This document shows, piece after piece, positions 3,392-23,506 of a DNA stretch of 25,042 bases (positions within the stretch are counted from its first letter, which is position 1; each line of letters starts with the position of its first letter). Below the pieces are notes generated by a model. The model did no database searches. It was given only the letters and a program-made list of their open reading frames with translations, and was not told the origin of the DNA. The position numbers and the translations under genes are program-made. The DNA is from a virus, in the IMG/VR virus record IMGVR_UViG_3300045855_000039, positions 1 through 25,042 of that record; one strand, 5' to 3'.

Positions 3392-3774
3392 AATACCCTC
3401 AATCTATTTGCTATAGTCATATCAATTAATATATCCGAAGATATTATTATTTTCACATCATTTATTTTTATGATATCTGGCATATTATCTAAATACACCA
3501 AAAAAGTTTTTATTGCGCTGTAATGCTGAATATCTAATTTTAAAAATAACATTTTTACTACAAAAATATTAGATTCAAAAGCATTAAATAATAAAATAAT
3601 ATGATTTAAAATTAATCTATCAGATAAAACTTCAGAATTAATATATTTATTAATTAATTTTTTTATTGAGAATACTCGTTTTAAATCACTATAAAATTCT
3701 AAATCGGTATAGTGTATAGACCAATATTGCTTTGCTGCAACCAACAAATAATTTTCATTGGTTAAATTATCCAT
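3388..3774 (-). CDS. Conserved T4-like hypothetical (DUF7207-like)
   Basis: 128 aa, all helical. The central RLILNHIILLFNAFES followed by VVKMLFLKLD and FLVYLDNMPDII matches my memory of a small conserved protein (DUF7207-type) in marine T4-like phages, usually among late or structural genes. No catalytic residues stand out. It overlaps the upstream gene by 1 nt (TAATG) and the downstream gene by 4 nt (ATGA), so it is translationally coupled on both sides. The family assignment is from memory and moderate; the gene itself is clear. Confidence 0.75.
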   Translation of the reverse strand: MDNLTNENYLLVAAKQYWSIHYTDLEFYSDLKRVFSIKKLINKYINSEVLSDRLILNHIILLFNAFESNIFVVKMLFLKLDIQHYSAIKTFLVYLDNMPDIIKINDVKIIISSDILIDMTIANRLRVL

Positions 3775-4148
3775 TATAATAGTTCACCAGAAACTTTATA
3801 TAAACCATTTATTAATTGATAATTAAAAGCAAATATTAATGGTACTACTGGTTGCAATTCGCCTTTAATTTCATCATAAACTTTATGTTGATAACCAACA
3901 GTCATTTTTAAAGAACCCTGTTTAGTATCATCACAATCAATTTGTGGTAAATCTAAATTATACATAGAGAGAATTTTTCTAACTTTATTTGCAGCTTCTT
4001 CAACACTTTGATATTGTTGTCTTAGAATTAAATCTATATTTTTATTTAATTCATTTTTAATTTCTGGTATAGTAACATCAGTACCTGTAGTATCTATTGT
4101 GACTACAGGCACTTGTTCTGCTATAAAAGTTTTAAAACTTTTTAACAA
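3774..4148 (-). CDS. Hypothetical late protein
   Basis: 124 aa with a TTG start: GGAG of the preceding gene's end lies 8 nt upstream and no ATG is in frame until the middle of the protein. The N-terminus LKSFKTFIAEQ is like the SFKTF(L/I)xE openings common in small T4-like late proteins. Residues about 10-30 are Thr/Val-rich, then a helical stretch, then beta-type sequence. No known domain recognised. It starts 3 nt after the GGRAGR-type gene, downstream of the late promoter at 4521, so a virion or assembly role is plausible but unproven. Confidence 0.65.
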   Translation of the reverse strand: MLKSFKTFIAEQVPVVTIDTTGTDVTIPEIKNELNKNIDLILRQQYQSVEEAANKVRKILSMYNLDLPQIDCDDTKQGSLKMTVGYQHKVYDEIKGELQPVVPLIFAFNYQLINGLYKVSGELL

Positions 4149-4151
4149 AAT

Positions 4152-4484
4152 TTATACTCCAGTAAAAAATGGATTAGCATTATTACCAGTACCAACTGGA
4201 GAAGATAGTGCAACTAAAACTTCAGATGTAACTCTACCAGCTCTACCACCAGTACCAGTTTTAAATGTTACCCAACCAGTATGAGAAATTCCTCTTTGAC
4301 CATACGCAGACGTAATAGCAGACGTATTAGCATTAGCTTTTCTAGAAGATGTAACTAAAACAGTATTAGCTAATTGTGCATTTGCTCTAGCAGATTCTAT
4401 ACCACCTTGACCATTACCAACTTGAATCCACTTAGGTTTAGTGTTTGCATATCCATTTGTATCTGTAGCTTTCCATTCTGACAT
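4152..4484 (-). CDS. GGRAGR-type probable virion protein
   Basis: 110 aa. An N-terminal KPKWIQV segment, an Ala/Asn-rich middle and the end HTGWVTFKTGTGGRAGRV then SEVLVALSS. I recall this C-terminal GWV...GTGGRAGRV...ETLVAM signature from small proteins of cyanophage and pelagiphage T4-like genomes, where they are listed as structural or hypothetical. Pro- and Gly-rich short beta segments without catalytic residues fit a virion component (inference). It is the first gene after the late promoter box at 4521-4528, with AAAGGAA in front of the ATG, consistent with strong late expression. Confidence 0.75.
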   Translation of the reverse strand: MSEWKATDTNGYANTKPKWIQVGNGQGGIESARANAQLANTVLVTSSRKANANTSAITSAYGQRGISHTGWVTFKTGTGGRAGRVTSEVLVALSSPVGTGNNANPFFTGV

Positions 4485-4520
4485 TTTATTATTCCTTTAA
4501 TTAAATTTATTATATATTAG

Positions 4521-4532
4521 TATTTATATAAA
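4521..4532 (-). promoter_or_regulatory. T4-type late promoter
   Basis: Minus-strand TTTATATAAATA with the gp55-type box TATAAATA at 4521-4528, about 37 nt before the ATG at 4484, in a 62-nt gap between genes. The same 12-mer occurs at 6715-6726 and 20247-20258, each in an intergenic gap. Confidence 0.75.
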
Positions 4533-4546
4533 ATATATTATATTGA

Positions 4547-5317
4547 TTAACAACTGGTATTATTATCATAATCTGGAGTAGCTGACGATTTTCCAGATTT
4601 TTTATCCTGACCTGTCCCAAAGAATATTACTTCTTCTGATGGTTTAGTTGATTTCTGTTTAACTTCTTTTATTTTTTCTAAAATATTCATAGTAAGTACA
4701 GAAACATTTTCATTAGCTGCATCACAAGATTTATTAACTACACCCTTTTTGTCAAGATCCACAACTTGCTTTAACATTTTCATAGCAGTTATTCTATTTA
4801 TATCTTTAGCATGTCTTGGGACAGATATGATACTAGATGATTCTGGGTGTGAATAATTATTATGGCTACCAGATGGTCCAGTAGATTTCCAACCATTTGA
4901 GATTAAATGTTTGTGCATAGTTTTGGTATTCCAACCAGCACCAACAACTTCATCTAATTGATCATCAGAGATTATATCAGTAGATTCATATTTATTAATT
5001 TTCATCCAAGCATGAAAAGCTGGTGAATTTTTAATCTTATCACGTAATTGTTTACCAACTTCACCACGTAACTTATATGGATCTAAATGCAATTGATCTC
5101 TGTAATAGGTAACTACAGCATCATAGTTAGAAACTTCATCAAGAATATCTTCTTTACAACAGTTTTCTGCACTAGAAGTAGCAATAGCCAGTTTTTTGCC
5201 CATATCCATATCTGGATGTTCTTTTTCTATAGCTTTAGCAATTTCTTCTCGCTTTTTCAATTCCTGTTTAGTTAATGTTCGTTCATTATATAACTTTTTT
5301 ATACCTAATAAATCCAT
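4547..5317 (-). CDS. Late protein with embedded HicA-like domain
   Basis: 256 aa. Residues 1-60 are charged and helical, with a KREEIAKAIEKEHPDM and MGKKLAIATSSAE stretch like those in other T4-like phage proteins. Residues about 130-187 resemble the HicA mRNA-interferase fold (PF07927): a helix, NGW, G150-S151-H152 with the candidate catalytic His, a second His-Pro at 157-158, VPRH at 166-169 and a final helix MLKQVVD. HicA toxins are usually about 60 aa alone and paired with HicB; no HicB-like gene is adjacent. The C-terminal 70 residues are Lys/Ser-rich and disordered. AAAGGAAT precedes the ATG. It may bind or cut RNA, or be a re-used fold. Domain assignment is from motif reading only. Confidence 0.7.
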   Translation of the reverse strand: MDLLGIKKLYNERTLTKQELKKREEIAKAIEKEHPDMDMGKKLAIATSSAENCCKEDILDEVSNYDAVVTYYRDQLHLDPYKLRGEVGKQLRDKIKNSPAFHAWMKINKYESTDIISDDQLDEVVGAGWNTKTMHKHLISNGWKSTGPSGSHNNYSHPESSSIISVPRHAKDINRITAMKMLKQVVDLDKKGVVNKSCDAANENVSVLTMNILEKIKEVKQKSTKPSEEVIFFGTGQDKKSGKSSATPDYDNNTSC

Positions 5318-5329
5318 AATAATATTCCT

Positions 5330-5713
5330 TTAGAATTTTGGACGTTTAAATTTATTTGCATGTGTTTGAAAAAAATTACTATTCTGTTGTGGATTTGTTG
5401 GATGTTGAGTATTAATTATAGGAACAACTGGTGGAGGAACAATAGCTGGTTTATATGGTTTTGGTTTAAATGGTTTATTGAGTACTGATTGTTTAACTTT
5501 AACTATATTATCAGTAAACTTTTTAGCATTTAAAGCACTAATTTCAGAACTACCAACATCAGCGTCAGAATCAGTTCCCGTTAGTTCTGCTTTCTTTCGT
5601 TGTGCTTTCTCTATTTCTCTTTTAGTATTAGGGTTCATCTCCTTACTATATCTTCCCAAACCATGCGAAAATTTAAAACTTGCTGTTATTGGATCGGTTA
5701 TATTAGATGCCAT
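5330..5713 (-). CDS. Proline-rich hypothetical protein
   Basis: 127 aa, hydrophilic and mostly unstructured. Residues about 25-45 are charged, and residues about 75-115 are rich in Pro, Lys and Gln (KPFKPKPYKP, VPPPVVP). No domain recognised. Its start lies inside the last 11 nt of the P-loop gene, with AAGGAT about 11 nt before the ATG. It is 12 nt upstream of the HicA-domain gene, so the two are likely co-expressed. A scaffold or linker-like role would be speculation. Confidence 0.6.
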   Translation of the reverse strand: MASNITDPITASFKFSHGLGRYSKEMNPNTKREIEKAQRKKAELTGTDSDADVGSSEISALNAKKFTDNIVKVKQSVLNKPFKPKPYKPAIVPPPVVPIINTQHPTNPQQNSNFFQTHANKFKRPKF

Positions 5714-6458
5714 TTGGAATTATCCTTTTCTTAAATAATATCTTTTTAGTTTTACTTAAAACGTTTTGTCTATCTATCTTATCATTTTGTTGTGGTGAAG
5801 AACCAAACAAATTAGTTTCAAATGATGGTTCATCAATAGATTCAACACCAGTAAACATTATAGTACCAACTATACCATTTTCAGATTGATCTGGAACAGT
5901 TTTTGATTTATACCGAAATCTTGATTTTAATTTTGGTTTTACAATATCTTCTAATGATAATGTACTATTAAACTTTAAATCAGATAAAATATCTGAAATA
6001 TAATTCCTAGATTCTGTTAAATCTAAATATTTTGAATTATTAACTATAACATAAGAATTAAATTCTGAAATGATAGAATTTTTATTTGAATTACCTATAG
6101 ATATTCTATTTAAGGATTCTCTTAAATTATTCCTATTTTGTAATCTATCGTATGAGGTAGATAAATCTGCTTCTACAATAATTAAATGTGAGGTATAACC
6201 AATAGATTCTAATACATGTTTAGTTACTATGAAATTTAAATCAAATGTATTGGCAGTAACTATTATAGATTCAGTATTTAATAGAGCATTACGTTTATCT
6301 GATTTGGCTCTAACAAAAGAATCATTATTAGATAACATTTCATCTATCTGCACAGAAGTAAATTCAACTATATTATAGTTTGATGTTATATCTCTAATTA
6401 CTACATCTTTACCAGAACCAGGAGATCCTAATATAAATAAAGCTTGATTATTTTGCAT
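5703..6458 (-). CDS. P-loop NTPase / nucleoside-kinase-like protein
   Basis: About 251 aa. I start at MQNNQALFI because the frame before it overlaps the upstream 73-aa gene, and this ATG follows that stop directly (TAATATG). Walker A is G11-SPGSGK-D18, directly after a hydrophobic strand, as in AAA_33/zeta-like kinases. A candidate acidic switch (IIVEADL) lies near residue 125, with an Arg-rich LQNRNNLRESLNR lid-like stretch after it. The C-terminal third is low-complexity, with several basic patches, and unlike a plain kinase. The substrate is unknown. Its late position is odd for nucleotide metabolism; T4-like phages from sea water carry similar P-loop genes near structural genes (from memory). 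Confidence 0.7.
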   Translation of the reverse strand: MQNNQALFILGSPGSGKDVVIRDITSNYNIVEFTSVQIDEMLSNNDSFVRAKSDKRNALLNTESIIVTANTFDLNFIVTKHVLESIGYTSHLIIVEADLSTSYDRLQNRNNLRESLNRISIGNSNKNSIISEFNSYVIVNNSKYLDLTESRNYISDILSDLKFNSTLSLEDIVKPKLKSRFRYKSKTVPDQSENGIVGTIMFTGVESIDEPSFETNLFGSSPQQNDKIDRQNVLSKTKKILFKKRIIPNGI

Positions 6459-6714: not shown

Positions 6715-6726
6715 TATTTATATAAA
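6715..6726 (-). promoter_or_regulatory. T4-type late promoter
   Basis: Minus-strand TTTATATAAATA with TATAAATA at 6715-6722, in the 46-nt gap after the sugar cluster and about 34 nt before the ATG at 6681. It shares 12 bases with the boxes at 4521 and 20247. It separates the early-type sugar genes from the late block. Confidence 0.75.
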
Positions 6727-6727
6727 A

Positions 6728-7651
6728 TTACAATTGGGTTTTAAAATATTCAATTGTAGATTTTAACCCAGAATCTAATTGAATATGCGGATACCAACCT
6801 AGTTTAGTTTTAGCTAATGATATATCTGGTTTACGCTGTTTTGGGTCATCTAAGGGGAGGTCTTTATATATTATAATTGACTTACTACCAACTAATTGTA
6901 TTACTTTATTTGCCAATTCAGATATAGTAAATTCATTAGGATTTCCTAGATTTATTGGCCCAACTTCATCCGAATTCATTAAGGATATTAATCCAGATAT
7001 TAAATCATCTATATATTGAAAACTTCTAGTTTGGTTTCCATCGCCATATATAGTTATATCTCTATCCTGTAATGCTTGCATAATAAAATTAGAAACCACC
7101 CTACCATCATTGGGGTGCATATTAGGACCATATGTATTAAAAATTCTAGCTATTCTAATATCAACATTATGTTGTCTATGATAATCAAAAAATAGGGTTT
7201 CTGCAACTCTCTTTCCTTCATCATAACAACTCCTAATACCAATAGGGTTAACATTACCCCAATACGATTCAATTTGAGGGTGTATTAAAGGATCTCCATA
7301 CACCTCAGAGGTAGACGTTTGTAGTATTCGAACACCCAACCTCTTAGCTAATCCTAACATATTAATCGCCCCAAGAACAGACGTTTTAGTTGTTTGTATT
7401 GGATCTTTTTGATAATGTATTGGGGAAGCAGGACACGCCAAATTATAAATTTGATCTACTTCAAGATATAATGGAAAAGTTACATCATGGCGAATAAATT
7501 CAAAATTTTTATTATCAAGTAAATTATTAATATTTGATTTATCACTACTAAAACAATTATCAACACAAATTACAAAATGCCCTTGATCAAGCAATTTTGC
7601 ACATAAATGTGAACCAATAAAACCAGAACCACCTGTTACTAATATTTTCAT
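6728..7651 (-). CDS. UDP-glucuronate decarboxylase (UDP-xylose synthase), SDR family
   Basis: 307 aa, a full-length member by pattern. It would convert UDP-glucuronate to UDP-xylose with bound NAD. The Rossmann motif GGSGFIG (7-13), [12 protein letters not shown] (70-81), [10 protein letters not shown] (112-121) and the catalytic Y143-x3-K147 in SCYDEGKR are all present, as are ARIFNTYGP and [10 protein letters not shown]. These are signature stretches of the UXS branch, so the call is stronger than a generic epimerase. It is the last gene of the sugar operon, 12 nt after FkbM, with AAAGG before the ATG. The product would feed a glycosyltransferase of the same cluster. Confidence 0.88.
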
Positions 7652-7663
7652 TATATTATACCT

Positions 7664-8299
7664 TTAAATTAAAAATGAATCTACAAATAAATCATCATTA
7701 CCAGAAAGCTGTGTTAAGAATACATAATTTTTAGTTTCCATAAAAGTTCTAATAAGTTCTTGATATTTTAATATATTTGCAGTTTCTATTAAAATATATT
7801 TTGGTCTGATATAAGAAAAATCAACTCCATTTAATACTTCAAGTTCATAACCTTCGACATCAAGACTAAACAAATCTATAGATTTGATATTGTGTTTAAG
7901 TATTAAATTATGTAATGATATGCAAGGAACTTTTATATTTTTAGATTCTATAGTTGGTTGATAATACTTCTCGACTCCAGATATTCCAGACATTAGCCCA
8001 TTAACATTATCTTCAGAATAAATAAAATCCCCAGATATAGTAGAATTGTGTTTTTCATAATCAAAACTAACTAAAGCATAATTTTCAACTATAGAATTCG
8101 ATCTTAATTCTTTACATTTAATATAATTTTCAAAAGTAGGTTCAACTAATAACCCAGACCAGTTCAGAGTGGTTTCAAATAAATATGAATTGGAAGCAGT
8201 AATACCATCATTAGCCCCACATTCTACAAAAACTCCATTTTTATAGTTAACATATTCTAGTAATTTTATATCTAACGAATTTTGAGAATAACTGATCAT
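7664..8299 (-). CDS. FkbM-family SAM methyltransferase
   Basis: 211 aa. FkbM-type enzymes usually O-methylate sugars or polyketides. Motif I is FVECGANDG (about 24-32), and the family-typical IDLFSLDVEGYELEVLNG is near residues 140-157. Full length for a single-domain FkbM protein. It overlaps the RmlD-like gene upstream by 4 nt (ATGA). The likely target is a hydroxyl of the sugar made or transferred by the neighbours (inference). Confidence 0.85.
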   Translation of the reverse strand: MISYSQNSLDIKLLEYVNYKNGVFVECGANDGITASNSYLFETTLNWSGLLVEPTFENYIKCKELRSNSIVENYALVSFDYEKHNSTISGDFIYSEDNVNGLMSGISGVEKYYQPTIESKNIKVPCISLHNLILKHNIKSIDLFSLDVEGYELEVLNGVDFSYIRPKYILIETANILKYQELIRTFMETKNYVFLTQLSGNDDLFVDSFLI

Positions 8300-9081
8300 A
8301 ATATTAATTGTGGGTTAGTGTATAGTAAATTATAAGAAAGTAATTGGTTATATATCGAATCTAATTTTATATCAGATTCAATGGAATAATTTTTTGTATC
8401 TTTAATAGTAGATTGTATAATATTTATAGGCTTTTTATAGACTAATTTAAAAATATTAAGTAAATCATATTTTGAAATTATTAAGTCTGAAGAAAGCATA
8501 GTTAATAATGGGGTAGTATTAAAATTTAAACATAAATTAAAACTACACTTTGCCCATTCAAGAGCAGTTATACCATTCCAAAAATAATTTGAATATCCAG
8601 CACATTCGTTTTTTGACGATAAAAACCAAGATAAAAGTGAAGTATTATGTTTATCGAATCCTATAATAGAACTTCTAATCACTCTAACATTAGAAGGATT
8701 ATTAATATTCGAAAAAAACTTAGCTTTACTTTCTCCATAATAATTTGATGGGTTTATTATTGAAAATTTATTATATGTATATTCTGGTAATATATTGCCA
8801 GAATATACTGCATCTGAACATGGATGTATTAATTTAAAATTATTATGTAAAAATGTAGGTAAATCATAATTAATATTAAATTTACTTTCATCGTGTAATT
8901 CTGCTATACAATTTATAACTATACCAGAAAAAGATTTTATAGAGTTAAAAAATTCAATTGATGGGTATCTAAAATTTATAACTTGAACACTAATTCCATT
9001 ACTATTGAAATATTTTACAACACAATCGCCTAATAATCCAGTATGACCTAAAACTAAAATATCATTGTCTAAAGTAATCAT
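8296..9081 (-). CDS. RmlD-like SDR nucleotide-sugar reductase
   Basis: 261 aa. The N-terminal Rossmann motif ILVLGHTGLLGD (8-19) and the active-site motif YYGESKAK (Y-x3-K, near residue 115) match the extended SDR branch of dTDP-4-dehydrorhamnose reductases and the reductases of FucNAc pathways. It would reduce a 4-keto sugar nucleotide such as the product of the PseB/CapD-like dehydratase just upstream. The 20-nt overlap with that gene fits stepwise action. Exact substrate unknown. The C-terminal third is divergent. Confidence 0.75.
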   Translation of the reverse strand: MITLDNDILVLGHTGLLGDCVVKYFNSNGISVQVINFRYPSIEFFNSIKSFSGIVINCIAELHDESKFNINYDLPTFLHNNFKLIHPCSDAVYSGNILPEYTYNKFSIINPSNYYGESKAKFFSNINNPSNVRVIRSSIIGFDKHNTSLLSWFLSSKNECAGYSNYFWNGITALEWAKCSFNLCLNFNTTPLLTMLSSDLIISKYDLLNIFKLVYKKPINIIQSTIKDTKNYSIESDIKLDSIYNQLLSYNLLYTNPQLIL

Positions 9082-9997
9082 ACGATTCTAATAAATCAAT
9101 CAATTCAGATTTTGCTAATACAAAATTTTTTGAGGAATATTCATTATCTTTAAAAGTAAGTTCATTAAAATGAATTTTCGGGTGTAACGAGTATAAATTA
9201 AAATCTGAATGAAATTTTAACCTCGGAATCTCTTCAGATGAAGCCATTATTTCATGAATTTTTTCTCCAATCCTTGGGGATTTTATTGAATATTTTAATT
9301 TAAATTTTTCAGAATAAATTTCAAATAAATCTAATATATTAATACTTTTAATATTAGGTATAATATTTACTCCATCAAAATTTAATGATCTTTCAATTAA
9401 ATTTATAGCATCGTCAACACAAATTGCAAATCTAGTCATTGAATTTGAATATAAAGGTATTTCTATATTATTTTTTATAGCAGACCAAATTAATGGAATT
9501 ATACTACCAGTAGAATTTAATACATTACCATAAATAACAGTAGATAGTTTAGTATCGCTATCATTATTTAATATAAAACTTTCTCCTGCTACATATTTCA
9601 TGGCACCATAAATTGTAGTAGCAGACCTAGATTTATCAGTACTAATAAAACTAGCACATTTAAATTCATTTTCTATAGAGACTCTTCTAGAATTTAATGC
9701 GCCATCAATAATAATTTTTACTGCTTCTTCTGGGTTTTCATCACAAGCTTCGATTTGTTTTAAACTTGCAGCAAAAATTCCAATATCATGATTTTTAGAT
9801 TTACGTTTAAGTAAATCATAATCTCTAATATCACCAACTACACACTTAATATTTGGGTAAGTTTTTTTTAAAAAATAATGCTTAGACTCATCTCTTGAAT
9901 AAATTGTTATATCATTATTATCATAATATTGTTTAATTATATGTTTACCTAAATATCCAGCACCACCTGTTATAAATATTCTACTATTTTCAATCAT
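9062..9997 (-). CDS. PseB/CapD-like UDP-sugar 4,6-dehydratase
   Basis: 311 aa. Motifs in order: FITGGAGYLGKH (8-19), IYSRDESK (32-39), VGDIRD (54-59), AASLKQIEACDENP (76-89), STDK (119-122) and YGAMK (130-134). These are the hallmarks of the UDP-GlcNAc 4,6-dehydratase group (PseB, FlaA1, CapD short form), including the TDK...Y-x3-K catalytic set. The product would be a 4-keto-6-deoxy sugar nucleotide. It overlaps the C-methyltransferase by 4 nt upstream and the reductase by 20 nt downstream, so the three may act in one route. No aminotransferase follows, so pseudaminic acid is not indicated. Confidence 0.85.
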   Translation of the reverse strand: MIENSRIFITGGAGYLGKHIIKQYYDNNDITIYSRDESKHYFLKKTYPNIKCVVGDIRDYDLLKRKSKNHDIGIFAASLKQIEACDENPEEAVKIIIDGALNSRRVSIENEFKCASFISTDKSRSATTIYGAMKYVAGESFILNNDSDTKLSTVIYGNVLNSTGSIIPLIWSAIKNNIEIPLYSNSMTRFAICVDDAINLIERSLNFDGVNIIPNIKSINILDLFEIYSEKFKLKYSIKSPRIGEKIHEIMASSEEIPRLKFHSDFNLYSLHPKIHFNELTFKDNEYSSKNFVLAKSELIDLLESYDYFRQ

Positions 9998-11229
9998 AAT
10001 GAATTAAAAGTAAGAGTTTGAAGTTCAGATTTTGTAAATGATTTAATTTCTGGAAAAAATATAATATAATTATAATCTTGATCTGAAGTTTTATTCACAA
10101 TTAATTTTACATAATTCCAAGCAAAAATTATTAAATAATCTATAGATTTTTTTTGAAATTCTTCATATGTAATAATTGGAATTTTACAATCAGCAATATA
10201 TCTATTTTGTCGTTCTAATGATTCATCAACTATAAAATCAATGATAGAATCATTTAACCCAATAATATTACAAAACATATTAGCTCTACCCGATGCCCCA
10301 TACCCACCTAAAGTAAAACCTTTAGACTTCAACTCTAATATATAGTTTTTAATATGTTTAATATTTTGAATATAATTAGTTTTAAATTTAGGGATCTCAT
10401 TAGAATATAATAAAATTTCAGCTTCTATCATATCATCAACAAGTTTAGAATTTGAATTATGTTTATCAACAGTGACTCTAATTGATCCACTATGGCTTGA
10501 AACTTCATCTACATTAGAAATATATAAATTATATTTATTAAATAAATTATTTAAGGAAGTAATTGAATAATAATATATATGTTCATGATAAATATTATCC
10601 CATTGATTTTCTAAAATCAAATTTTTAAGATAATGAACTTCAAAGATAAACTTTCCAGAGTTAGATAAGCAATAATCTATAGCTCTTACTACATCATTTA
10701 TATCATCAATATGAGCAAATACATTATTTCCAATAATCACATCAAATTTATTTTTATATGTGTCTATACAAAAATTAGCAGTATTAAAATAACCAGAAAA
10801 TGTAGTTAACCCTTTATCATCAGCAAGCTTAATGATATTTTCGGCTGGATCAACCCCTAAAACATTAGCTCCAAATTCTTTTAAATAATATAATAAAGTT
10901 CCATCATTACTACCAAATTCTAAAATATTTTTATTAGAAATATCATATAAATTATTTAAGTCTATAGCATATTGTTTAAAATGAGCACTTAATCCAACAG
11001 AAGAGGAATATCTATAATCTTTAAATAAATAATCAGCATTTATTATTGAATCAGTCTGAACCAATTTACAATCTTCACATAATAATAAGTTCAAATTAAA
11101 TTTAGTCGAGAATTCAGGTGAAGTTGGGAAATGTCCAGCTAATGGAATTTCCCCTAAACTAATAATTGTTGATAAATTAGACGAATCACAACTTGAACAT
11201 TTACAACGTATTTTATATATAGTATTCAT
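9994..11229 (-). CDS. Sugar C-methyltransferase (TylCIII/NovU-type, three domains)
   Basis: 411 aa, the usual size of this family. An N-terminal zinc site C11-x2-C14 and C51-x2-C54, a SAM-binding motif ILEFGSNDGTLL (102-113), the active-site region YHEHIYYYS, and a C-terminal domain with LGGYGASGRANMF. Such enzymes transfer a methyl group to C-3 of a 4-keto-6-deoxy sugar nucleotide and give branched sugars. The adjacent dehydratase makes the right kind of substrate, so a branched deoxy sugar is likely (inference). Only 9 nt separate it from the upstream gene, and I see no good ribosome binding site near the ATG, so coupling is likely. Confidence 0.85.
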   Translation of the reverse strand: MNTIYKIRCKCSSCDSSNLSTIISLGEIPLAGHFPTSPEFSTKFNLNLLLCEDCKLVQTDSIINADYLFKDYRYSSSVGLSAHFKQYAIDLNNLYDISNKNILEFGSNDGTLLYYLKEFGANVLGVDPAENIIKLADDKGLTTFSGYFNTANFCIDTYKNKFDVIIGNNVFAHIDDINDVVRAIDYCLSNSGKFIFEVHYLKNLILENQWDNIYHEHIYYYSITSLNNLFNKYNLYISNVDEVSSHSGSIRVTVDKHNSNSKLVDDMIEAEILLYSNEIPKFKTNYIQNIKHIKNYILELKSKGFTLGGYGASGRANMFCNIIGLNDSIIDFIVDESLERQNRYIADCKIPIITYEEFQKKSIDYLIIFAWNYVKLIVNKTSDQDYNYIIFFPEIKSFTKSELQTLTFNSL

Positions 11230-11238
11230 AATAATATT

Positions 11239-11871
11239 TTATTTTTTTATAAAAAATAACCCTCTATTATAAAAATGATTATCTTTATATTCTGGGTTAA
11301 TAGATATTGCATCAGCAAAAGTTACTACTTTTAAATTTTCGGTTAATTGTTCATCATATTTAAACCCATATAATGCTAATTCATTAATCCAATATTCTTT
11401 TGGTTGACAATTTACATGATTATGCCCTTCTTGTCCAGGTTCTGCATATGTTATCGCTAAAATCTTACACTTTGAAAATAATGATAAGAAATTTGCTTTA
11501 TATTTTTCTTCAATATGTTCTACAAACTCACAACACCAACCAAAATCAAATTCCTGTTCTAAAATTAATTCTCCAGAAGTAAAGTCATGAAAAATAATAT
11601 TATCTGAATAGGTGCTATTTTCTTTTACAAAAGTTGACCCATCTACACCAGTAATATTATTTAATGGGATATGAGAAGAAAATTCTCCTATTGCATGACC
11701 CATACCACAACCAATATCTAAAATTGAATTTACATTATAAGTTTTTATAATATATTCCCACAATTTTGGCATATAAGTAGCAGGGTCTTTTTCTATAAGA
11801 AATCCCCCAACATGATTTTCTTCTACCATAGTTAAATGCTCAGTTATTTTTCTTAAATTTATATTATACAT
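11239..11871 (-). CDS. Class I SAM methyltransferase
   Basis: About 210 aa from the ATG at 11871; a TTG 12 nt upstream is possible. Motif I is SILDIGCGMGHA, then an acidic motif II (TGVDGS) and motif post-II FDFGWCCEFVEHI, of the Methyltransf_23/11 type. The start overlaps the end of the upstream glycosyltransferase (ATGTATAA). By context it modifies a sugar or a sugar-related metabolite; the substrate cannot be read from the sequence. Confidence 0.8.
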   Translation of the reverse strand: MYNINLRKITEHLTMVEENHVGGFLIEKDPATYMPKLWEYIIKTYNVNSILDIGCGMGHAIGEFSSHIPLNNITGVDGSTFVKENSTYSDNIIFHDFTSGELILEQEFDFGWCCEFVEHIEEKYKANFLSLFSKCKILAITYAEPGQEGHNHVNCQPKEYWINELALYGFKYDEQLTENLKVVTFADAISINPEYKDNHFYNRGLFFIKK

Positions 11872-12586
11872 TATTATTCTCAATGATTAGTTTGTCAATT
11901 AAATGATATGATGCAGGATTGCCTTTATTTGGACCAATATAATTTTTACCTAAAGTTGAATTATCCCAAGATTTCCACGCAAAATTATCATTTATAAGTA
12001 TATCAGTATATGAATTATTATATAGCTCACCAAAATTTTTTATAATTTTATCATTTAAAAAAGTATATTTTGAAAAAAATTCTGGTTCTGATTTCATACA
12101 TTTATCATTATCTTGTAATGGGCTTTTCCAAGAATAACTATAGGTTGAATCACAACTTTCATATAAGGCTAAATTATTTAATTTTAGTCTAAAAACCCAA
12201 TCCACATCTTCCCAACCACCACCTAAAAACCGTTCATCCCACCAACCGATTTTTCCGATTAAACTTTTACTAAACCCCATAAATCCAGCATTATACATAA
12301 AAGAACATGCATACCCATTTTCTAAATGTTCTAGTATAGATTCAACTTCGCTTGGGGTAGGAAAAGTTCTATCGTTAATAAAAATAATTATTTCAGTATT
12401 TGATGTAATAATTGAATGATTTATTAATTCTGAATAGCTTGGATACGCATATGGATATCGATCTATTCTATTATTCCAAAATACATTATACTTTGAATTT
12501 AATATGGATAAAGAATCCATTTGTGATTTTACTATATTATAATCACACCCACAATGTAAACATATTGTAAATTCTGTAATTTTCAT
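11864..12586 (-). CDS. GT-A glycosyltransferase with GT7-like C-terminal motif
   Basis: About 240 aa from the ATG at 12586. An upstream TTG would add 14 residues inside the preceding gene and is less likely. A GT-A start (TEFTICLHCG) leads to an IFINDRT segment in the place of the DxD loop (near 70-73). GWWDERFLGGGWEDVDW (114-130) strongly resembles the acceptor/metal motif of galactosyltransferase-type GT7/GT2 enzymes. It likely transfers a sugar to a growing glycan. It starts 1 nt after the stop of the preceding GT gene; the ribosome binding site is weak. Confidence 0.78.
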   Translation of the reverse strand: MKITEFTICLHCGCDYNIVKSQMDSLSILNSKYNVFWNNRIDRYPYAYPSYSELINHSIITSNTEIIIFINDRTFPTPSEVESILEHLENGYACSFMYNAGFMGFSKSLIGKIGWWDERFLGGGWEDVDWVFRLKLNNLALYESCDSTYSYSWKSPLQDNDKCMKSEPEFFSKYTFLNDKIIKNFGELYNNSYTDILINDNFAWKSWDNSTLGKNYIGPNKGNPASYHLIDKLIIENNNV

Positions 12587-12587
12587 A

Positions 12588-13340
12588 TTAAATAAACCAC
12601 TCTTTTCTCCAAGGTTGACCTCCAGCAAAATGTCGTATAATCACCGAATCTTTATCACATATATTAATATTAAATTCACACGATGATTCATTAACTAATT
12701 CGGTAACATTCCATTCTGTGGGTAATATATAAACATTATCTTCTAATTCTTGTAAAGAATAAATAGTATGTTCTGTTTTTTTAGAATGCCACCCATAATT
12801 ATCTATCTCCCAAAAAGATTTATCGGAATGTGGCATTATACCAGCTAAAGAATACCAAGATGCTTGTTCTCTGAACAGATCCCAAAAATTAAAATTAAAC
12901 TTTAAACGTTCATGATATACATATTCGCGTTTAAATATATCAAACCTACTTTGATCTAATATCAAATCTATCATATTCTTAGACCAACTATTTACTATTA
13001 TAGAATAAGATCCCATACAATGCGTATTACCGGAATCTATACTATAATTAAAAGATTTTATAGTTGGATATTCTATATTTGGATTTACAATACACATATC
13101 AGCATCAATATGGGTCAGAATATCTCCATCTTCTAAAAATCCCGAATTAATCAAATCTCGCACAATAGTAAACTTTAACCATGTATAATTATCTCTATAT
13201 TTTTCAATAGGTGCCGTATATTCTAAATATATTATATCATGAAGTGTGCAATATTCTCTATTTCTTTTTGACATATATTCGTTAAAGAATTCTTGTCTAT
13301 AGTCCGAATAATTTGCTATAACCATTAAATATTTTTTCAC
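12588..13340 (-). CDS. GT34-like glycosyltransferase, GTG start
   Basis: 250 aa. The start is GTG at 13340: GAGG lies 7 nt before it and TAGTG joins it to the previous gene's stop. An ATG 15 nt later would leave the first strand short. HIDADMCI (78-85) carries the metal-binding D79-x-D81, and the C-terminal IRHFAGGQPWRKEW resembles GMA12/MNN10-type (GT34) galactosyl- or mannosyltransferases. No membrane anchor, so cytosolic. Donor and acceptor unknown. Confidence 0.78.
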   Translation of the reverse strand: MKKYLMVIANYSDYRQEFFNEYMSKRNREYCTLHDIIYLEYTAPIEKYRDNYTWLKFTIVRDLINSGFLEDGDILTHIDADMCIVNPNIEYPTIKSFNYSIDSGNTHCMGSYSIIVNSWSKNMIDLILDQSRFDIFKREYVYHERLKFNFNFWDLFREQASWYSLAGIMPHSDKSFWEIDNYGWHSKKTEHTIYSLQELEDNVYILPTEWNVTELVNESSCEFNINICDKDSVIIRHFAGGQPWRKEWFI

Positions 13341-14050
13341 TAGTTAACCTCATTTTTTGGCTTCTGTATTAATACCCAAGTTTGTGCTTGACATACCATG
13401 TTATTATCTATCATTTTATTATCATTCAATACATCATCAGTAGTAGGCCAATTGTTATTAGAGAATATGTATTTAATATACTCCAAATTTCCCCAATACC
13501 CACATTCTAATATATTAAAACCTACACTTTTACACAACATACACAAACCAATTGGCGTAATTCCCCAAAAATGAAATGGTTGCATATGTGGTATATTTAT
13601 GGTTGGTACTGTAGTATACAAATACCCTCCAGGGTTTAAATGTTTGTATAAATTTTCCATAGCCATAAAAGGGTTATACAAATGTTCTAGCGTTTGATTG
13701 AAAATTATAAAATCAAAGTTAGTTTCAGATAATACCATAGTATGTATATCAAACCTAGAGTCTTTAGAATAATCTGCAACATAAAGTTTGTTATAGTTAA
13801 TATATTCCAATTCGCAATCATCTATAAAGGTGGATAATAATTTATCTCCCGTAGAAATATTGTATTTTACAATCCAATCTTTAAAGTCAAATAAAGAAGC
13901 TAATCTAGGAAAATCTCTATTAAACCATTTAACTTTTTCATTAGATGATAATTTATCATATTCTATATTGGATTTATTAAAATATTCAGCTGGTTTTACT
14001 ACAAATTCCAAATATGTATCATTTATATCTTTTTCACTAAAAATCATCAT
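13340..14050 (-). CDS. Methyltransferase-like protein with missing motif I
   Basis: 236 aa. The second half looks like a class I SAM methyltransferase: FDFIIFNQTLEHLYNPF, then LKHLNPGGYLYTTVP-type sequence (NLYKHLNPGGYLYTTVP). The glycine-rich SAM loop (motif I) expected before it is not recognisable; that region reads KYNISTGDKLLSTF. It could be a divergent enzyme of the Methyltransf_23 group or a non-catalytic relative. It sits between glycosyltransferases, sharing ATGATG with the exostosin-like gene upstream and TAGTG with the GT34-like gene downstream. Confidence 0.7.
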   Translation of the reverse strand: MMIFSEKDINDTYLEFVVKPAEYFNKSNIEYDKLSSNEKVKWFNRDFPRLASLFDFKDWIVKYNISTGDKLLSTFIDDCELEYINYNKLYVADYSKDSRFDIHTMVLSETNFDFIIFNQTLEHLYNPFMAMENLYKHLNPGGYLYTTVPTINIPHMQPFHFWGITPIGLCMLCKSVGFNILECGYWGNLEYIKYIFSNNNWPTTDDVLNDNKMIDNNMVCQAQTWVLIQKPKNEVN

Positions 14051-14883
14051 AGTCGTTTCATTATGTTGCTATATACACCAGATAAACTAAAATATTCATT
14101 ATATATTGTAGCACCTTTAATTAACATCTTATTATAGTCTTCATCTGATATAGACTTTAAAATAGTATCTATATTGGAAATATCTTCTTCATTAATTATA
14201 ACGCAAAATTCAGCCCAATTTAATTCATCTACCCAAGGAAGATAATGTATATCAGAAATATAAACTGGTACAGAATTTAACTGAAAAGCTTCATATAATC
14301 TAAATGAAGTTGGACCATATCCTCTAGGACATAAAACAAATTTACTTCTTAAACTAATATCAATAAAATATTTTAAATTTTCTTGTGGAACTGTATTAGA
14401 CCAATTACACATGTTATAAGAATAACCTTCTTTATCTTTTAATTCATAATAAAGCTTTTCTCTTATGTTGTGTGTAAGAGACCCAACAAAGGATGCAAAC
14501 AAATCTTTTTTAATATAAGACCCAATTAATTCTTTTGGTATTGGAGAACAAATTAATGGTATTGGGATAATATTTCCATGAGTTCTCCTACCTCCAGCAG
14601 AAAAAATTAACGTGTCTTCTGGGAGATTTTCTTTTGGTCCATCATCATGTTGACATACGGTAAAATACTTTTTATTTGGATCTAATTCAGATAATGCTTT
14701 TTGAATATCAATTATGTCGGAATTCAAATAATCCTTATTGCAATAAAGATTGGTCCAAAAAATATCAATATATTCTCTATTAGAATCTTTATATTTGTCA
14801 TAAAAATATTCTTCAAGGTACAATCCAGTATGATATGGTGGGTATATTGGATAATCTGCGGTAGGTCTTAATTCATTTTTCAT
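14047..14883 (-). CDS. Exostosin-like glycosyltransferase (GT47 type)
   Basis: About 278 aa from the ATG at 14883, chosen over a GTG 30 nt upstream because AAGGAAATTGGAA directly precedes the ATG. The C-terminal half has LFASFVGSLTHNIREKL and FVLCPRGYGPTSFRLYEAF, followed by NSVPVYISD, the donor-binding core of exostosin-family transferases. These use UDP sugars; UDP-xylose or UDP-glucuronate from the cluster would be suitable donors (inference). 17 nt follow the GT77-like gene. Confidence 0.82.
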   Translation of the reverse strand: MKNELRPTADYPIYPPYHTGLYLEEYFYDKYKDSNREYIDIFWTNLYCNKDYLNSDIIDIQKALSELDPNKKYFTVCQHDDGPKENLPEDTLIFSAGGRRTHGNIIPIPLICSPIPKELIGSYIKKDLFASFVGSLTHNIREKLYYELKDKEGYSYNMCNWSNTVPQENLKYFIDISLRSKFVLCPRGYGPTSFRLYEAFQLNSVPVYISDIHYLPWVDELNWAEFCVIINEEDISNIDTILKSISDEDYNKMLIKGATIYNEYFSLSGVYSNIMKRL

Positions 14884-14900
14884 TTCCAATTTCCTTTTTA

Positions 14901-15563
14901 TTATATAAACCACAAATTTTCATCTTTAAATCTTTGTATCTTTGTATCAATCCCAACCATCCAATTATTATGGACAATAATAGCTTTAGATTTTTTACCT
15001 AATTTATAATAGGAATTTCCATTTGGAAATAAATCTTCATTCAATAATTCACACTCAATAATATAATCTTTAATAATATGATTAAAAATTAATTGATCAT
15101 CTTGACCTTCATAACTTGCACACAAAGAAATTAATGTGCGACACAAATCACTATCAACAAATTTCATAAATCCAGTACAAACAAGACTTCCAGGAAGATC
15201 ACTTTGGAAACATATCTTATCAAAACTATTCAAATATTCTGTTGGGTTTTCTTTAAAAACAATATCAGTATCAACCCAAACTAAATCTTTATGTTTTAAA
15301 TATTGCTCTTCAATAATTTTCCATTTATATTGGACAATAGATCTAAAATTTGAACTTTCATCAAAACTCCAATCTTGGTATTCAGTTAATTCTTGATTAA
15401 TATATAGGTATGCATTTTTATATTCTTTAAATGCCTCTAAAGAATTGTTATCTAAACATGCAATATAAAAATCATCTAAATTAATTCCAACTAATTCTGC
15501 AGATTTTAACATATTTTTACAAATTTCTAAACAACCAGAATTTAAAAACGTCACAAATTTCAT
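14901..15563 (-). CDS. GT77-like nucleotide-diphospho-sugar transferase
   Basis: About 220 aa. The ATG at 15563 overlaps the previous stop (ATGA) and has AAGGAG 11 nt upstream; a TTG 9 nt earlier is too close to that site. VWVDTDIVF (D98-x-D100) is the metal motif; FQSDLPGSLVCTGFM and AIIVHNNWMVGIDTKI follow, the layout of the Nucleotid_trans (PF03407) group. Cytosolic, no anchor. Transfers a sugar from an NDP donor to an unknown acceptor. Confidence 0.8.
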   Translation of the reverse strand: MKFVTFLNSGCLEICKNMLKSAELVGINLDDFYIACLDNNSLEAFKEYKNAYLYINQELTEYQDWSFDESSNFRSIVQYKWKIIEEQYLKHKDLVWVDTDIVFKENPTEYLNSFDKICFQSDLPGSLVCTGFMKFVDSDLCRTLISLCASYEGQDDQLIFNHIIKDYIIECELLNEDLFPNGNSYYKLGKKSKAIIVHNNWMVGIDTKIQRFKDENLWFI

Positions 15564-16240
15564 AATGTACAATTCTCCTTAAAAAACTCATTTAAAAAAT
15601 CTGGACATGTATGATTTATTGTAGCTTGATTGGTTCTACCTAATTGTCCAGCATGTTCTTTTAAAAAGTTATATAATAACCTATCATCATTTCGATCTTG
15701 TGTTGTGCGATATAATTGTGAAGCGACTATTCCATATTCACGCTTAAAAATCATACAGTTCCCATCCAACATTTCATAAGGAACTCTTCTAGATACCGAA
15801 TCACCAACACTTTCAAAATTATCTATACCATAATATTCACCGGATTCAGCATATATATTACGTAAACAACTAGACCAATTTAAATTTTTAATAGATTCTA
15901 ATAATGTTTCTGCATGATTAGGCTTCCAAACTACATCATCATCAGCAAATGTTACATATGGAGTATCTGCTGCATTTAAAGCTACAGCTCTTAGAGAGCT
16001 TCCTGGAGCATTTCCATTTTTACCTAATCCCCAAGGAAGATTAATACTCCATCTATTAGTTGAATTATAAGTTTCCGGTAATTTTGAATCTAGTTCTCTA
16101 AATTCATCCCACATTAATATATGAAATATTTTATCAGAAATAGTTTGATTTTCTATACTTTTTATTAAATTATCTAAATTTTTTCTACCTATAGTTGGAG
16201 TTATTACGGTTAACAAAAAATCACTAGAATTTATTTTCAT
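15560..16240 (-). CDS. GT2-type glycosyltransferase
   Basis: 226 aa. A typical GT-A opening (LLTVITPTIGRKNLDNLIKSI), the ADDDVVW motif (D100-D102) after YVTF, and a second half with MIFKREYG and DRNDDRLLYNFL where GT2 enzymes hold the catalytic Asp. Full length for a small soluble family 2 enzyme. It starts inside the gp41 stop (ATGA), so it is read with the replicative helicase: the sugar operon is fused to the replication operon without a visible promoter between. Confidence 0.85.
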   Translation of the reverse strand: MKINSSDFLLTVITPTIGRKNLDNLIKSIENQTISDKIFHILMWDEFRELDSKLPETYNSTNRWSINLPWGLGKNGNAPGSSLRAVALNAADTPYVTFADDDVVWKPNHAETLLESIKNLNWSSCLRNIYAESGEYYGIDNFESVGDSVSRRVPYEMLDGNCMIFKREYGIVASQLYRTTQDRNDDRLLYNFLKEHAGQLGRTNQATINHTCPDFLNEFFKENCTL

Positions 16241-20312: not shown

Positions 20313-20675
20313 TTAAAGTTCCCAATCTTCAAGAACTTCATCAAGAGAATAGACTTCATCAGATACTTCTTTGCCAGTTTCTAGATCAATAACTCTAACA
20401 ATATCCAACAAATTATTATATATAGATCCAAGTGCAGATGCTTCTACGATAAGTTCTAATGGGTAATTAGAATATAAATCTGTAGTAGTAGAAATCACTT
20501 GTAATGGATCATCTGATAAAATATAATCAAGACAAACATTATACATTACACCATTATCTACACATTCATGTTTCAACAAAGTAATAGCTACTGTTGGGCT
20601 ATTAAATACAGAGAAATTTTCAATTTTGTCACAATCATTTACACATTCAGTTTCGCTTGTCATTATATTTTCCAT
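20313..20675 (-). CDS. Small acidic hypothetical downstream of DNA polymerase
   Basis: 120 aa, acidic. Residues about 25-60 look like beta strands (TVAITLLKHECVDNGVMYNVCLD region), and the end is SLDEVLEDWEL. It is about the size of RegA, which follows 43 in T4, but I see no RegA-like sequence, so I do not use that name. It starts on the last base of the 43B stop (TAATG), and so is coupled to polymerase. A second in-frame ATG lies 4 codons in. Function unknown. Confidence 0.7.
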   Translation of the reverse strand: MENIMTSETECVNDCDKIENFSVFNSPTVAITLLKHECVDNGVMYNVCLDYILSDDPLQVISTTTDLYSNYPLELIVEASALGSIYNNLLDIVRVIDLETGKEVSDEVYSLDEVLEDWEL

Positions 20676-22040
20676 TAGTTAAAAAAGTCTTCGATTGATG
20701 TTGATTTTTCGGTTTTCCATCCTATAGCATCCAGAATATTTCTAAGTGGTGCTAAAAACGATTTTTCAAATTGCATATTAAAATCTACGTATTTATGTAA
20801 ACCGAATTCTACTGGTAATTCTGTAGGATATGATATTACCGTATTTTTTATTGGATTTGGTTCTCTCAGATATGTATATTTTATTTTGTCTCCTTCACCT
20901 ATTAATGGATATTTGTTTTCTAATCCAAGTTCTCGCAGTTTATTATTATATAATAAAGAACCTTTAGTATGGATTGGAGTTCCTTTAGAATATATAGTAA
21001 CCGAATCATTATATTTACTTAAGCCATTAACACCTCTAGGAAATGAAATTTCTTCTATTGAAAATTTAGAAAACTCAGATTGACATTTTGCAATATATTC
21101 ATGAATCTTCTCCTCACCTTCATCTAAGATAATACTCAATGCAGCCTTTAAAGTTTTCCTAATAACTCCAGGAGTAGATGATTTAACAACTTCTAAACCC
21201 ATAACTTTTAGTTTAGGTGTAGCATATCTAACCCCCTCATTATCAAGAACATTCATAAAATAACGCTTCTTCGCTAAAAATATTCCTGAAGAAAAAATAG
21301 ATTCTCGTTCAAATATAATAGTCTTTCTAAAATTATTAGTATAATCTTCTAATGCTACACAATGTTTATTAATGATTGGCATTAATTTCTCTTTACATAT
21401 TGTATCTAATAAATTTACAATTTCATCATCAGTTTTTTCTTTATAAAATCTCTCTACTACAGGATTTAATGTAATATAGCAGGAGTCAGTATCTTGATAC
21501 GTAACCCATTGATTTTGTTCAACTTTATTTTTATTAAACATATTATTTAATTCAAAATTAATCCAATAATCCATAGATTTAATAATATACTGACCAGTTA
21601 AGGTAATTGCTCTAGCATTTTCTAATTTAAAATATCTAAAATGTGCATTTCCGAGTGCTCCATATCATATTATGTTCAGATAGATTCGTGAATTCTATCC
21701 CGTCTATAGATAGACAGCTTTATGTTCCCATAAAGATCAGACTATATCATATTCCTAAATTATAGGAACCTCTGAGCTTCCACTCACTTGAGTGTACTTC
21801 GTTTCCACGAATAGTCGTTAAACCTTCCCATATTAGGCTTGGCTTGGTATTGTCCGGTCTGGAGTTCCACCAAATTCACAGAGTTATTCGATTATTGTTA
21901 CCAATAAAAGCACCATATTAGTCTAGCGAATTCATAGCAATTTTTGCCGCCATTTGAGCATTATTATATTTAGATATATTCCCCTCTAATTTATATTTTA
22001 ATTCCAGTAATTCTTTATCAGAATAATTTTTATACATCAT
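20675..22040 (-). CDS. 43B: DNA polymerase C-terminal half, gp43B (spliced: 22040-21925 joined to 21665-20675)
   Basis: Exon 1 (116 nt) and exon 2 (991 nt) give 368 aa. Exon 1 starts at the ATG at 22040 with AGAGG before it and encodes the second fingers helix up to motif B; splicing restores KIAMNSLYGALGN (K33, N37, Y40). Exon 2 has motif C YQDTDS (D97, D99), the KKRYFMNV and LKVMGLEVVKSSTP palm/thumb stretches, and ends SIEDFF, like the clamp-binding tail of T4 gp43. Without splicing the frame stops 2 codons after NSL. 43A plus 43B total 857 aa against 898 for T4 gp43. The two proteins must associate to form the active site. Confidence 0.9.
21666..21924 (-). ncRNA. Group I intron in gp43B
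   Basis: 259 nt, no ORF. The 5' exon ends in U (...TTCGCT) and the intron ends in G, as group I introns require; joining CT with A restores the Leu codon of NSLYG. Conserved pieces on the minus strand: GGACAATACC and CCAAGCC (P4 region), GGTTTAACGACTATTCG at 21808-21824 (R element) and ATGATATAGTCT at 21739-21750 (S element). GACUAU and AUAGUC pair as P7. Hairpins with GGAA tetraloops stand at 21718-21735 and near 21797-21810, and a UUAUUG/CAAUAA P2-like hairpin is near the 5' end. The 5' splice helix would be CGCU with GGUG, ending in U.G. It looks like the IA type common in T4-like phages. Confidence 0.88.
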
Positions 22041-23506
22041 AATCCTCTACATTTTAATTCTTTCTTTAAAACTTCTAATTCTCTCTCATTATCTTTCATT
22101 AGATTTTTTGCTATAACTCGTTTAGACATATATAAATCTACTAAATCGGGTAATAATCCTTGTTTATCTTTAGAATACATAGCACCACTAGCAGCAGTAC
22201 AATATATATCAGATAAATTATTATACTCTTGATTTATTAATTTGTCAACTGTTAATGGAGTATTTGACATTCCCATAAAAGTTTCTGGAGAAATATTCCA
22301 TCCCTGAAGAATACTAGGATATAAAGATTTTGCATCAACACTAATACCCCATTTATATAACCCAGGAATAGGTTCTTTTACATAAGCCCCCTCAAATTGT
22401 TCAGATTTAGAACTATTAGATTTCTTTGGAATAACTATATTATTATCCTTTAAGTGATTATAAATAATAGCATCCCACATCTTCATTTGAGAATATACTT
22501 CACTATAGTTGATTTTAGCCAGATACGCCATAGTTAAACATAATTCAATTAATTTCATCTTAGATTCTAATTGAGCAACCCGCTTTACATCGATTGTATT
22601 ATATTCTAGGTACTTAGAAAATCCATTCGTGTAAAAATCTTTAAAGTTAGCAAACTCTGAATGATCCAATTTACCAACCCCAAGTTCTTCTTGAGATATA
22701 AAATCTAAAGTATAACTCTCTCTAGTAGTATATGTATATTTTTTATATAAATCTAACATATCAATACAAGATACACCAGAAATTTCATAAATAGTTTCTT
22801 CTTTACCATAATTTCCTTTAGAAGTTCTACTTTTTATCATACCCCAGGGAGACAATTCTTTAGCACAACTATCTCCCATTATTCTAGAAATTCTATTAAT
22901 AATAAATGGTATATCGAATGTATTAGTATTCCATCCAGAAACAATATCTACAGCGACTCTATTCCAATAATCGATAAAATGTCTTAATAATGATACCTCA
23001 TTTTCACATAAGACAATAGTAACATTGTCTAAAGGTTCTCCTGCATAAGGTCTAGCAGTAAATACTGTAACTAATTGAGTTTTTAGGTCTAACATAGAAA
23101 TCAACAGAATTTCTTCTTCTGCTAATAAAGCATTTGGGAAGCCACCAAGTTCTGTCGAAGTTTCAATATCAACAATATGAATAGATATTTTATCTACATC
23201 AAAATCTACCACACCTTTGAATTTATCTGATATATATTGAGTATCAAACCCAATATCACCTAATATCTCAAAATTATCTACTTCAGAATATTGTTTAATA
23301 AGGTCTTTGGTTTCATTTATACTAGCACCAGATTTTAACTCTACTACATTATCTCCTTCTAAAGTTTTCAATAAAGAATTTTTATTAGATTTTATATAAA
23401 CTTTAGGACTATATTCACATTTAAATTTTACTGGTAATCCGTTTTCAACACCACGATAACATATAAAATTTCCTATTGTTCTGACATTTGTGTAGAAGCT
23501 ACTCAT
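22037..23506 (-). CDS. 43A: DNA polymerase N-terminal half, gp43A
   Basis: 489 aa. It holds the N-terminal domain, the 3'-5' exonuclease (Exo I D113/E115 in VDIETS; Exo II D198 in GWNTNTFDIPFI; Exo III D306 in YNTIDVKRV) and polymerase motif A (D391, DAKSLYPSI). It then ends in the first fingers helix (R463 of SKRVIAK) at KCRGL, instead of running on to motif B. The stop TGA lies in TTATGATG, which starts 43B. AGGAAA precedes the ATG and a short palindrome overlaps this site (23511-23525). Proofreading residues are all present. It overlaps the Sm-like small gene by 4 nt. Confidence 0.93.
   Translation of the reverse strand: MSSFYTNVRTIGNFICYRGVENGLPVKFKCEYSPKVYIKSNKNSLLKTLEGDNVVELKSGASINETKDLIKQYSEVDNFEILGDIGFDTQYISDKFKGVVDFDVDKISIHIVDIETSTELGGFPNALLAEEEILLISMLDLKTQLVTVFTARPYAGEPLDNVTIVLCENEVSLLRHFIDYWNRVAVDIVSGWNTNTFDIPFIINRISRIMGDSCAKELSPWGMIKSRTSKGNYGKEETIYEISGVSCIDMLDLYKKYTYTTRESYTLDFISQEELGVGKLDHSEFANFKDFYTNGFSKYLEYNTIDVKRVAQLESKMKLIELCLTMAYLAKINYSEVYSQMKMWDAIIYNHLKDNNIVIPKKSNSSKSEQFEGAYVKEPIPGLYKWGISVDAKSLYPSILQGWNISPETFMGMSNTPLTVDKLINQEYNNLSDIYCTAASGAMYSKDKQGLLPDLVDLYMSKRVIAKNLMKDNERELEVLKKELKCRGL

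Follow-up and report, generated by a model that had tools for sequence, protein, structure and literature searches.

Why would a T4-like phage place a HicA-type toxin domain inside one of its own late proteins, with no HicB antitoxin beside it? The question was raised by an earlier note on a 25,042-base viral record (the whole stretch analysed, hereafter the window), which had described a HicA-like fold within a longer open reading frame; the frame lies on the minus strand. The window encodes a gp61-like primase and a split family-B DNA polymerase, together with genes that, from reading their translations, are presumably UvsX/RecA-like and gp41-like. The polymerase, gp43-like, lies in two ORFs at 20675-23506 (minus strand), an exonuclease/palm part and a C-terminal part; its conserved motif AMNSL...YGALGN is broken by about 300 bases resembling a group I intron, for which Rfam gave nothing above its cut-off. 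Between the late operon and gp41, a long cassette at 6728-16240 (minus strand) reads, again from translations, as sugar epimerases, methyltransferases and glycosyltransferases, and its gene content differs strongly among relatives. The parts of the HicA-containing protein are as follows.

4547..5317, minus strand: whole ORF P0001, 256 aa, a phage late protein with an inserted HicA domain
5282..5317, minus strand: residues 1-12, conserved N-terminal peptide MDLLGIKKLYNE, whose last residue is the invariant Glu12; possible capsid-targeting sequence (family alignment)
5144..5281, minus strand: residues 13-58, exchangeable N-terminal module KREEIAKAIEKEHP... (alignments)
5135..5143, minus strand: residues 59-61, LDE/V (slash, predicted cut), candidate site A for the prohead protease, preceding the core
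4997..5134, minus strand: residues 62-107, conserved small helical core (NYDxVVxYYRxLxLDPYKLRG...SPAFxAW)
4694..4972, minus strand: residues 116-208, inserted segment, missing from HicA-less homologues (compared with L017, L004, L018, L008, L060 and others)
4949..4957, minus strand: residues 121-123, LDE/V, candidate protease site B, immediately preceding HicA
4757..4930, minus strand: residues 130-187, HicA domain (PF07927, PHROG 353, fold matches)
4862..4864, minus strand: codon of H152, which pairs with the functional H24 of Burkholderia HicA (phmmer alignment)
4676..4684, minus strand: residues 212-214, ILE/K, candidate protease site C, within the tail
4550..4693, minus strand: residues 209-256, C-terminal tail (LEKIKEVKQ...FFG), common to HicA-less homologues

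A HicA domain inserted into a conserved phage protein

Residues 130-187 are a HicA domain. The earlier note had recognized the fold from four motifs, which were present as described (NGW 141-143, GSH 150-152, HP 157-158 and VPRH 166-169), and had proposed profile and structure comparison with PF07927 as a check; both comparisons returned HicA. The Pfam profile PF07927 (HicA_toxin) matched residues 133-184 with 38.4 bits (gathering cut-off 27, E 1.3e-9), and PHROG 353, 'toxin', matched residues 130-184 (E 6e-10). By phmmer, residues 130-180 paired with HicA of Burkholderia pseudomallei, placing G150-S151-H152 on G22-S23-(H24A). Previous studies showed that toxicity of the Burkholderia protein needs G22 and H24, and that S23A is tolerated (PMC3969222). 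A structure model was built from two sequences with a weak overall pLDDT of 41; in this low-confidence model, segment 131-190 was predicted as helix-strand-strand-strand-helix, the order of HicA, and searches of this segment with Foldseek and VIA-align 2 gave HicA chains as all of the top six solved-structure matches (Z-scores of 8.5 for 5yrz, 8.4 for 6g26, 7.9 for 1whz, 7.2 for 4p78, 5.9 for 6hpb and 5.8 for 4c26). Outside the domain, helices were predicted for the N-terminal part, and the final ~50 residues were modelled with low confidence.

To place the domain in its family, the locus was compared among IMG/VR relatives. Proteins of 136-182 aa without HicA were found at the same locus in L004-L010, L017-L020, L024-L025, L056-L058, L060 and L070, with HicA-less homologues at the syntenic locus of at least nine related T4-like contigs. 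These share the N-terminus, the core (NYDxVVxYYRxLGLDPYKLRG...SPAFxAW) and the tail (LIExIKxAK...FFGYP) with the window protein, and the inserted part, measured against L017, spans about residues 116-208, between core and tail. HicA has thus been cleanly inserted in a phage protein that is itself conserved. The core helices were predicted at a pLDDT of ~85 in a model of a homologue. Residues 13-58 (KREEIAKAxExEHPGM...KKMAIATA) are kept in some close homologues and missing or exchanged in others, which makes the N-terminal end modular too.

Beyond the window, two diverged phages, L003 and L067, carry HicA in the same place. The L003 protein is 74% identical to the window protein and keeps the entire domain, while that of L067, from another sample, is ~39% identical and has a HicA match of 33.4 bits, above the PF07927 cut-off. 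Loss of H152 in close homologues, which the earlier note had named as evidence against its reading, was looked for, and the histidine is kept in both. In L067, GGEH stands where the window has SGSH, with Glu for Ser before the catalytic His; Gly, His and VPRH are kept. A further record, L002, matches the window at 99.9% DNA identity; being the same virus, it was left out of the independent evidence. Scans with the HicA insert alone revealed no additional carriers. Between the window and L003, dN/dS was 0.09 for the HicA part, 0.20 for the core and 0.12 for the tail; therefore, the domain is under purifying selection rather than drifting. In a tree of the kinase and primase, the HicA carriers fell on one side with a weak support of 72, at which one gain and one loss are not separable.

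Wider searches returned little. The whole 256-aa protein found only two weak HicA-type records among annotated phages, and the core found none that was significant; a scan of genome contigs with the neighbouring kinase, as well as PADLOC and NCBIfam, gave zero matches, and the core-family model had no convincing match in the PDB by Foldseek. A Pfam match to Orthopoxvirus B11R (E 0.036) was dismissed as chance. Two side observations concern L003: its GDP-fucose-synthase-like (NAD epimerase) gene at 438-2600 is interrupted by an intein that includes a LAGLIDADG endonuclease, and its ThyX gene at 11078-12733 is apparently intein-bearing, also with a LAGLIDADG part.

The late operon and the search for a HicB partner

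Expression late in infection, another proposal of the earlier note, was supported by promoter matches. The relevant features of the operon are listed here.

6715..6722, minus strand: T4-type late promoter TATAAATA, lying 33 bases upstream of the leading gene in the HicA-containing operon (same place in L003)
5703..6458, minus strand: P-loop kinase-like gene, the conserved upstream operon partner (homologues start at an internal Met, 6458)
4521..4528, minus strand: T4-type late promoter TATAAATA before the downstream 110-aa gene (same place in L003 and L067)
3774..4148, minus strand: neighbour gene starting MLKSFKTFIAEQ, a capsid-targeting N-terminus of the T4 internal-protein type

The octamer TATAAATA has been described as the late promoter of T4-like phages, including cyanomyoviruses (PMC2984593). 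In this AT-rich DNA its count in the window was not above chance, so the evidence lies in position and conservation, and solely copies at conserved distances were used: these lie 27-46 bases upstream of a start codon, either that of the leading gene in the operon or that of the gene following the core protein, and the placement recurs in L003, L067, L004, L017, L018, L055, L058 and L060. The gene order is kept as well: the kinase-like gene and the core protein are followed, in most cases, by the 110-aa and 124-aa genes (absent in some relatives), and then by DUF7207, DUF5856 and primase. Most genes neighbouring the HicA ORF were also found in HicA-less relatives, and comparison of gene order with those relatives showed no extra gene that came in beside the HicA insertion.

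The HicB profile PF15919 matched nothing, either in the window or among the related records that were searched, which upholds the earlier statement that HicB is missing here; these records are genome fragments, so a HicB may lie elsewhere in the genome, or be of an unrecognised type. Furthermore, HicA is not a small stand-alone protein here, being a domain within a 256-aa ORF. Because an adjacent HicB and a stand-alone size were both looked for and neither was found, we do not regard the protein as a member of a HicAB system.

Two annotated phages offer observations on the surroundings of related loci. In Rhizobium phage RHph_I1_18 (L072), an Acb1-like anti-CBASS gene lies at 4275-4754, near a locus matching the window operon, which suggests that the region collects counter-defence genes. 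In Stenotrophomonas phage DLP_6 (L073, 1540-5036), mosaic proteins adjoin the homologue of the 110-aa gene; one has a cytidylyltransferase part and a ParB-like C-terminus, and they look like more multi-module candidates.

Head-protein signs and candidate protease sites

Several neighbouring genes have N-termini that resemble the T4 capsid-targeting sequence, both in the window (MLKSFKTFIAE) and in relatives (MKTFKDFIAE, MKTFKEYITE and MLSFKDFLVE). In L040 (592-2344; G006), two adjacent genes begin with capsid-targeting type N-termini, MKTFKQFIFES and MKSFKQFIFES, and contain repeated KEYEVISNSHGAHA units. For the HicA-containing protein itself the family alignment showed M1 and E12 to be invariant, with variants of the N-terminal peptide ending in IIAE, MLSE and LYLE. 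An L/I-x-E ending is found as IIAE and MLSE in two homologues; the peptide of the window protein ends in YNE, which does not fit, so that it is no textbook capsid-targeting sequence.

In T4, the gp21 prohead protease cuts after L/I-x-E (PMC9026906). The only such motifs in the window protein are LDE at residues 59-61, LDE at 121-123, ILE at 212-214 and IKE at 216-218, all of them at domain edges: one precedes the core, one precedes HicA and two lie in the tail. Their total was not above chance when enrichment was tested over the protein (4 observed vs 2.4 expected), and the argument is accordingly drawn from motif position and conservation. Candidate site A takes the form [LI][DNQ]E/[VI]S in 13/13 homologues, with P3 and P1 fixed and P2 varying among D, N and Q; in the homologue model it falls in a linker of low confidence that leads into the folded core. 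Candidate site B, LDE/V, also occurs in L003, and L067 has LLDE/E before its HicA; 12 of the 13 homologues have a motif in the tail, L067 being the exception. Longer relatives encode a gp21-family protease (at 52070-52711 in G006 and 56152-56802 in G003) and a T4-type capsid protein, in which TL[NM]E immediately precedes the conserved stretch of the chain.

What the inserted domain may do

The earlier note had placed the domain in a probable virion or late protein and had suggested an injected or late RNase, or a re-used RNA-binding domain. A true HicA domain, its fusion to a phage protein, the late promoter and the missing adjacent HicB all held up; a place in the virion, cleavage, injection and RNase activity are predictions. 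We favour, at a probability of about 0.45, the reading that the protein is an internal head protein from which the prohead protease frees HicA, to be injected as an antitoxin-free RNase. The precursor, an internal head (ejection) protein carrying a cargo slot, would be made late and be guided by its short N-terminus to the prohead core. There, a gp21-type prohead protease would cut after residues 61, 123, and 214 or 218, separating N-terminus, core, HicA and tail and freeing a basic HicA fragment of residues 124-214. This fragment has ~91 residues, with 9 Lys and 2 Arg vs 7 acidic residues and a net charge of about +4. Once freed, it would be packaged and injected along with the DNA, and in the new host it may act as an RNase and translation inhibitor that aids takeover or blocks a defence. 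An antitoxin would be unneeded under this proposal because the toxin is made late, within a larger precursor, and released only inside the capsid, such that confinement and late release would stand in for the antitoxin. In its fullest form the proposal describes a capsid-delivered toxin zymogen, an antitoxin-free HicA RNase held in a head protein, which the prohead protease would activate only in the capsid and which, once injected, would shut down or reprogram translation in the host as infection begins; we put this forward tentatively.

T4 provides precedents for the steps of this proposal. Proteins bearing the capsid-targeting sequence, and foreign enzymes fused to it, are packaged and delivered (PMC9026906), and IPI*, of 76 residues, is injected and acts against restriction (PMC3012670). 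Alt is another precedent. The window protein is like IPI, IPII, IPIII and Alt of T4 in its late T4-type operon, its gp21-type motifs ending in Glu, its small basic cargo and the exchange of cargo among relatives, and fragment 124-214 resembles mature IPI* in size. It differs from them in its N-terminus, which does not match a textbook capsid-targeting sequence, in its cargo, a toxin-type RNase domain placed mid-chain, and in that its packaging is a prediction.

Other explanations account for part of these observations. The HicA domain could be a re-used dsRBD-like module that binds RNA or DNA without RNase activity, serving head assembly or nucleic-acid binding in the capsid. The HicA fold is indeed dsRBD-like (PMC3969222), a toxin lacking its antitoxin would be costly, and the host protein is small with a tail predicted to be disordered; however, the toxicity residues G150 and H152 are kept in all three lineages, pure binding would need neither, and most homologues manage without the domain, and we consider such a module somewhat unlikely. 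An unpackaged late RNase at work in the cell that makes it, with mRNA of the host or early phage mRNA among its possible targets, would suit the late promoter and the operon position; known HicA toxins cleave mRNA, and residues required for toxicity have been described (PMC3969222). It leaves the conserved L/I-x-E motifs at domain edges and the neighbours with capsid-targeting type N-termini unexplained, and a free RNase would also damage late phage mRNA; we consider it unlikely.

Alternatively, the domain might serve as a counter-defence decoy that binds host HicB, or another factor that recognises HicA, and cuts no RNA. T4 internal proteins are anti-defence factors (PMC3012670), and HicA domains have been tied to phage defence (PMC10865869). 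Direct evidence for a decoy was not found, and titration of HicB would free the host HicA toxin during infection and hurt the phage; we regard a decoy as very unlikely. That the domain is missing in most homologues could, finally, reflect a recent insertion with no function. This is highly improbable and already largely refuted by conservation, given the dN/dS of ~0.09 in HicA and the retention of the domain and its catalytic His in the strongly diverged L067.

Compared with known systems, the arrangement differs from HicA toxins of HicAB systems (PF07927) in its insertion in a larger phage late protein, in that HicB was not found and in its predicted release by a prohead protease. A survey by Gerdes in 2024 distinguished 14 HicA contexts, of which classes 11-14 are HicA-HicB fusions and SMC-HicA (PMC10865869). 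Those fusions likewise hold HicA within a larger chain, but the partner here is a phage late protein, and none of the 14 contexts is of this kind. Phage polyvalent proteins (PMC5512222) share with our proposal the idea that effector domains, RNases among them, travel with the phage DNA; in contrast to the small protein here they are large and multidomain, and HicA is unmentioned in that paper. Mycobacteriophage Adephagia, too, carries a HicA, but as part of an ordinary two-gene toxin-antitoxin pair in a temperate phage (PMC11373665).

HicA domains are currently interpreted as parts of toxin-antitoxin or host-defence systems. Here, a lytic-type phage has placed HicA in its own late protein, at a locus resembling the head cargo slot of T4-like phages. 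If the domain is packaged, a toxin-antitoxin RNase would have become an injected phage weapon, with the prohead protease replacing the antitoxin as its control, and other capsid-targeted phage proteins may hold inserted effector domains as well.
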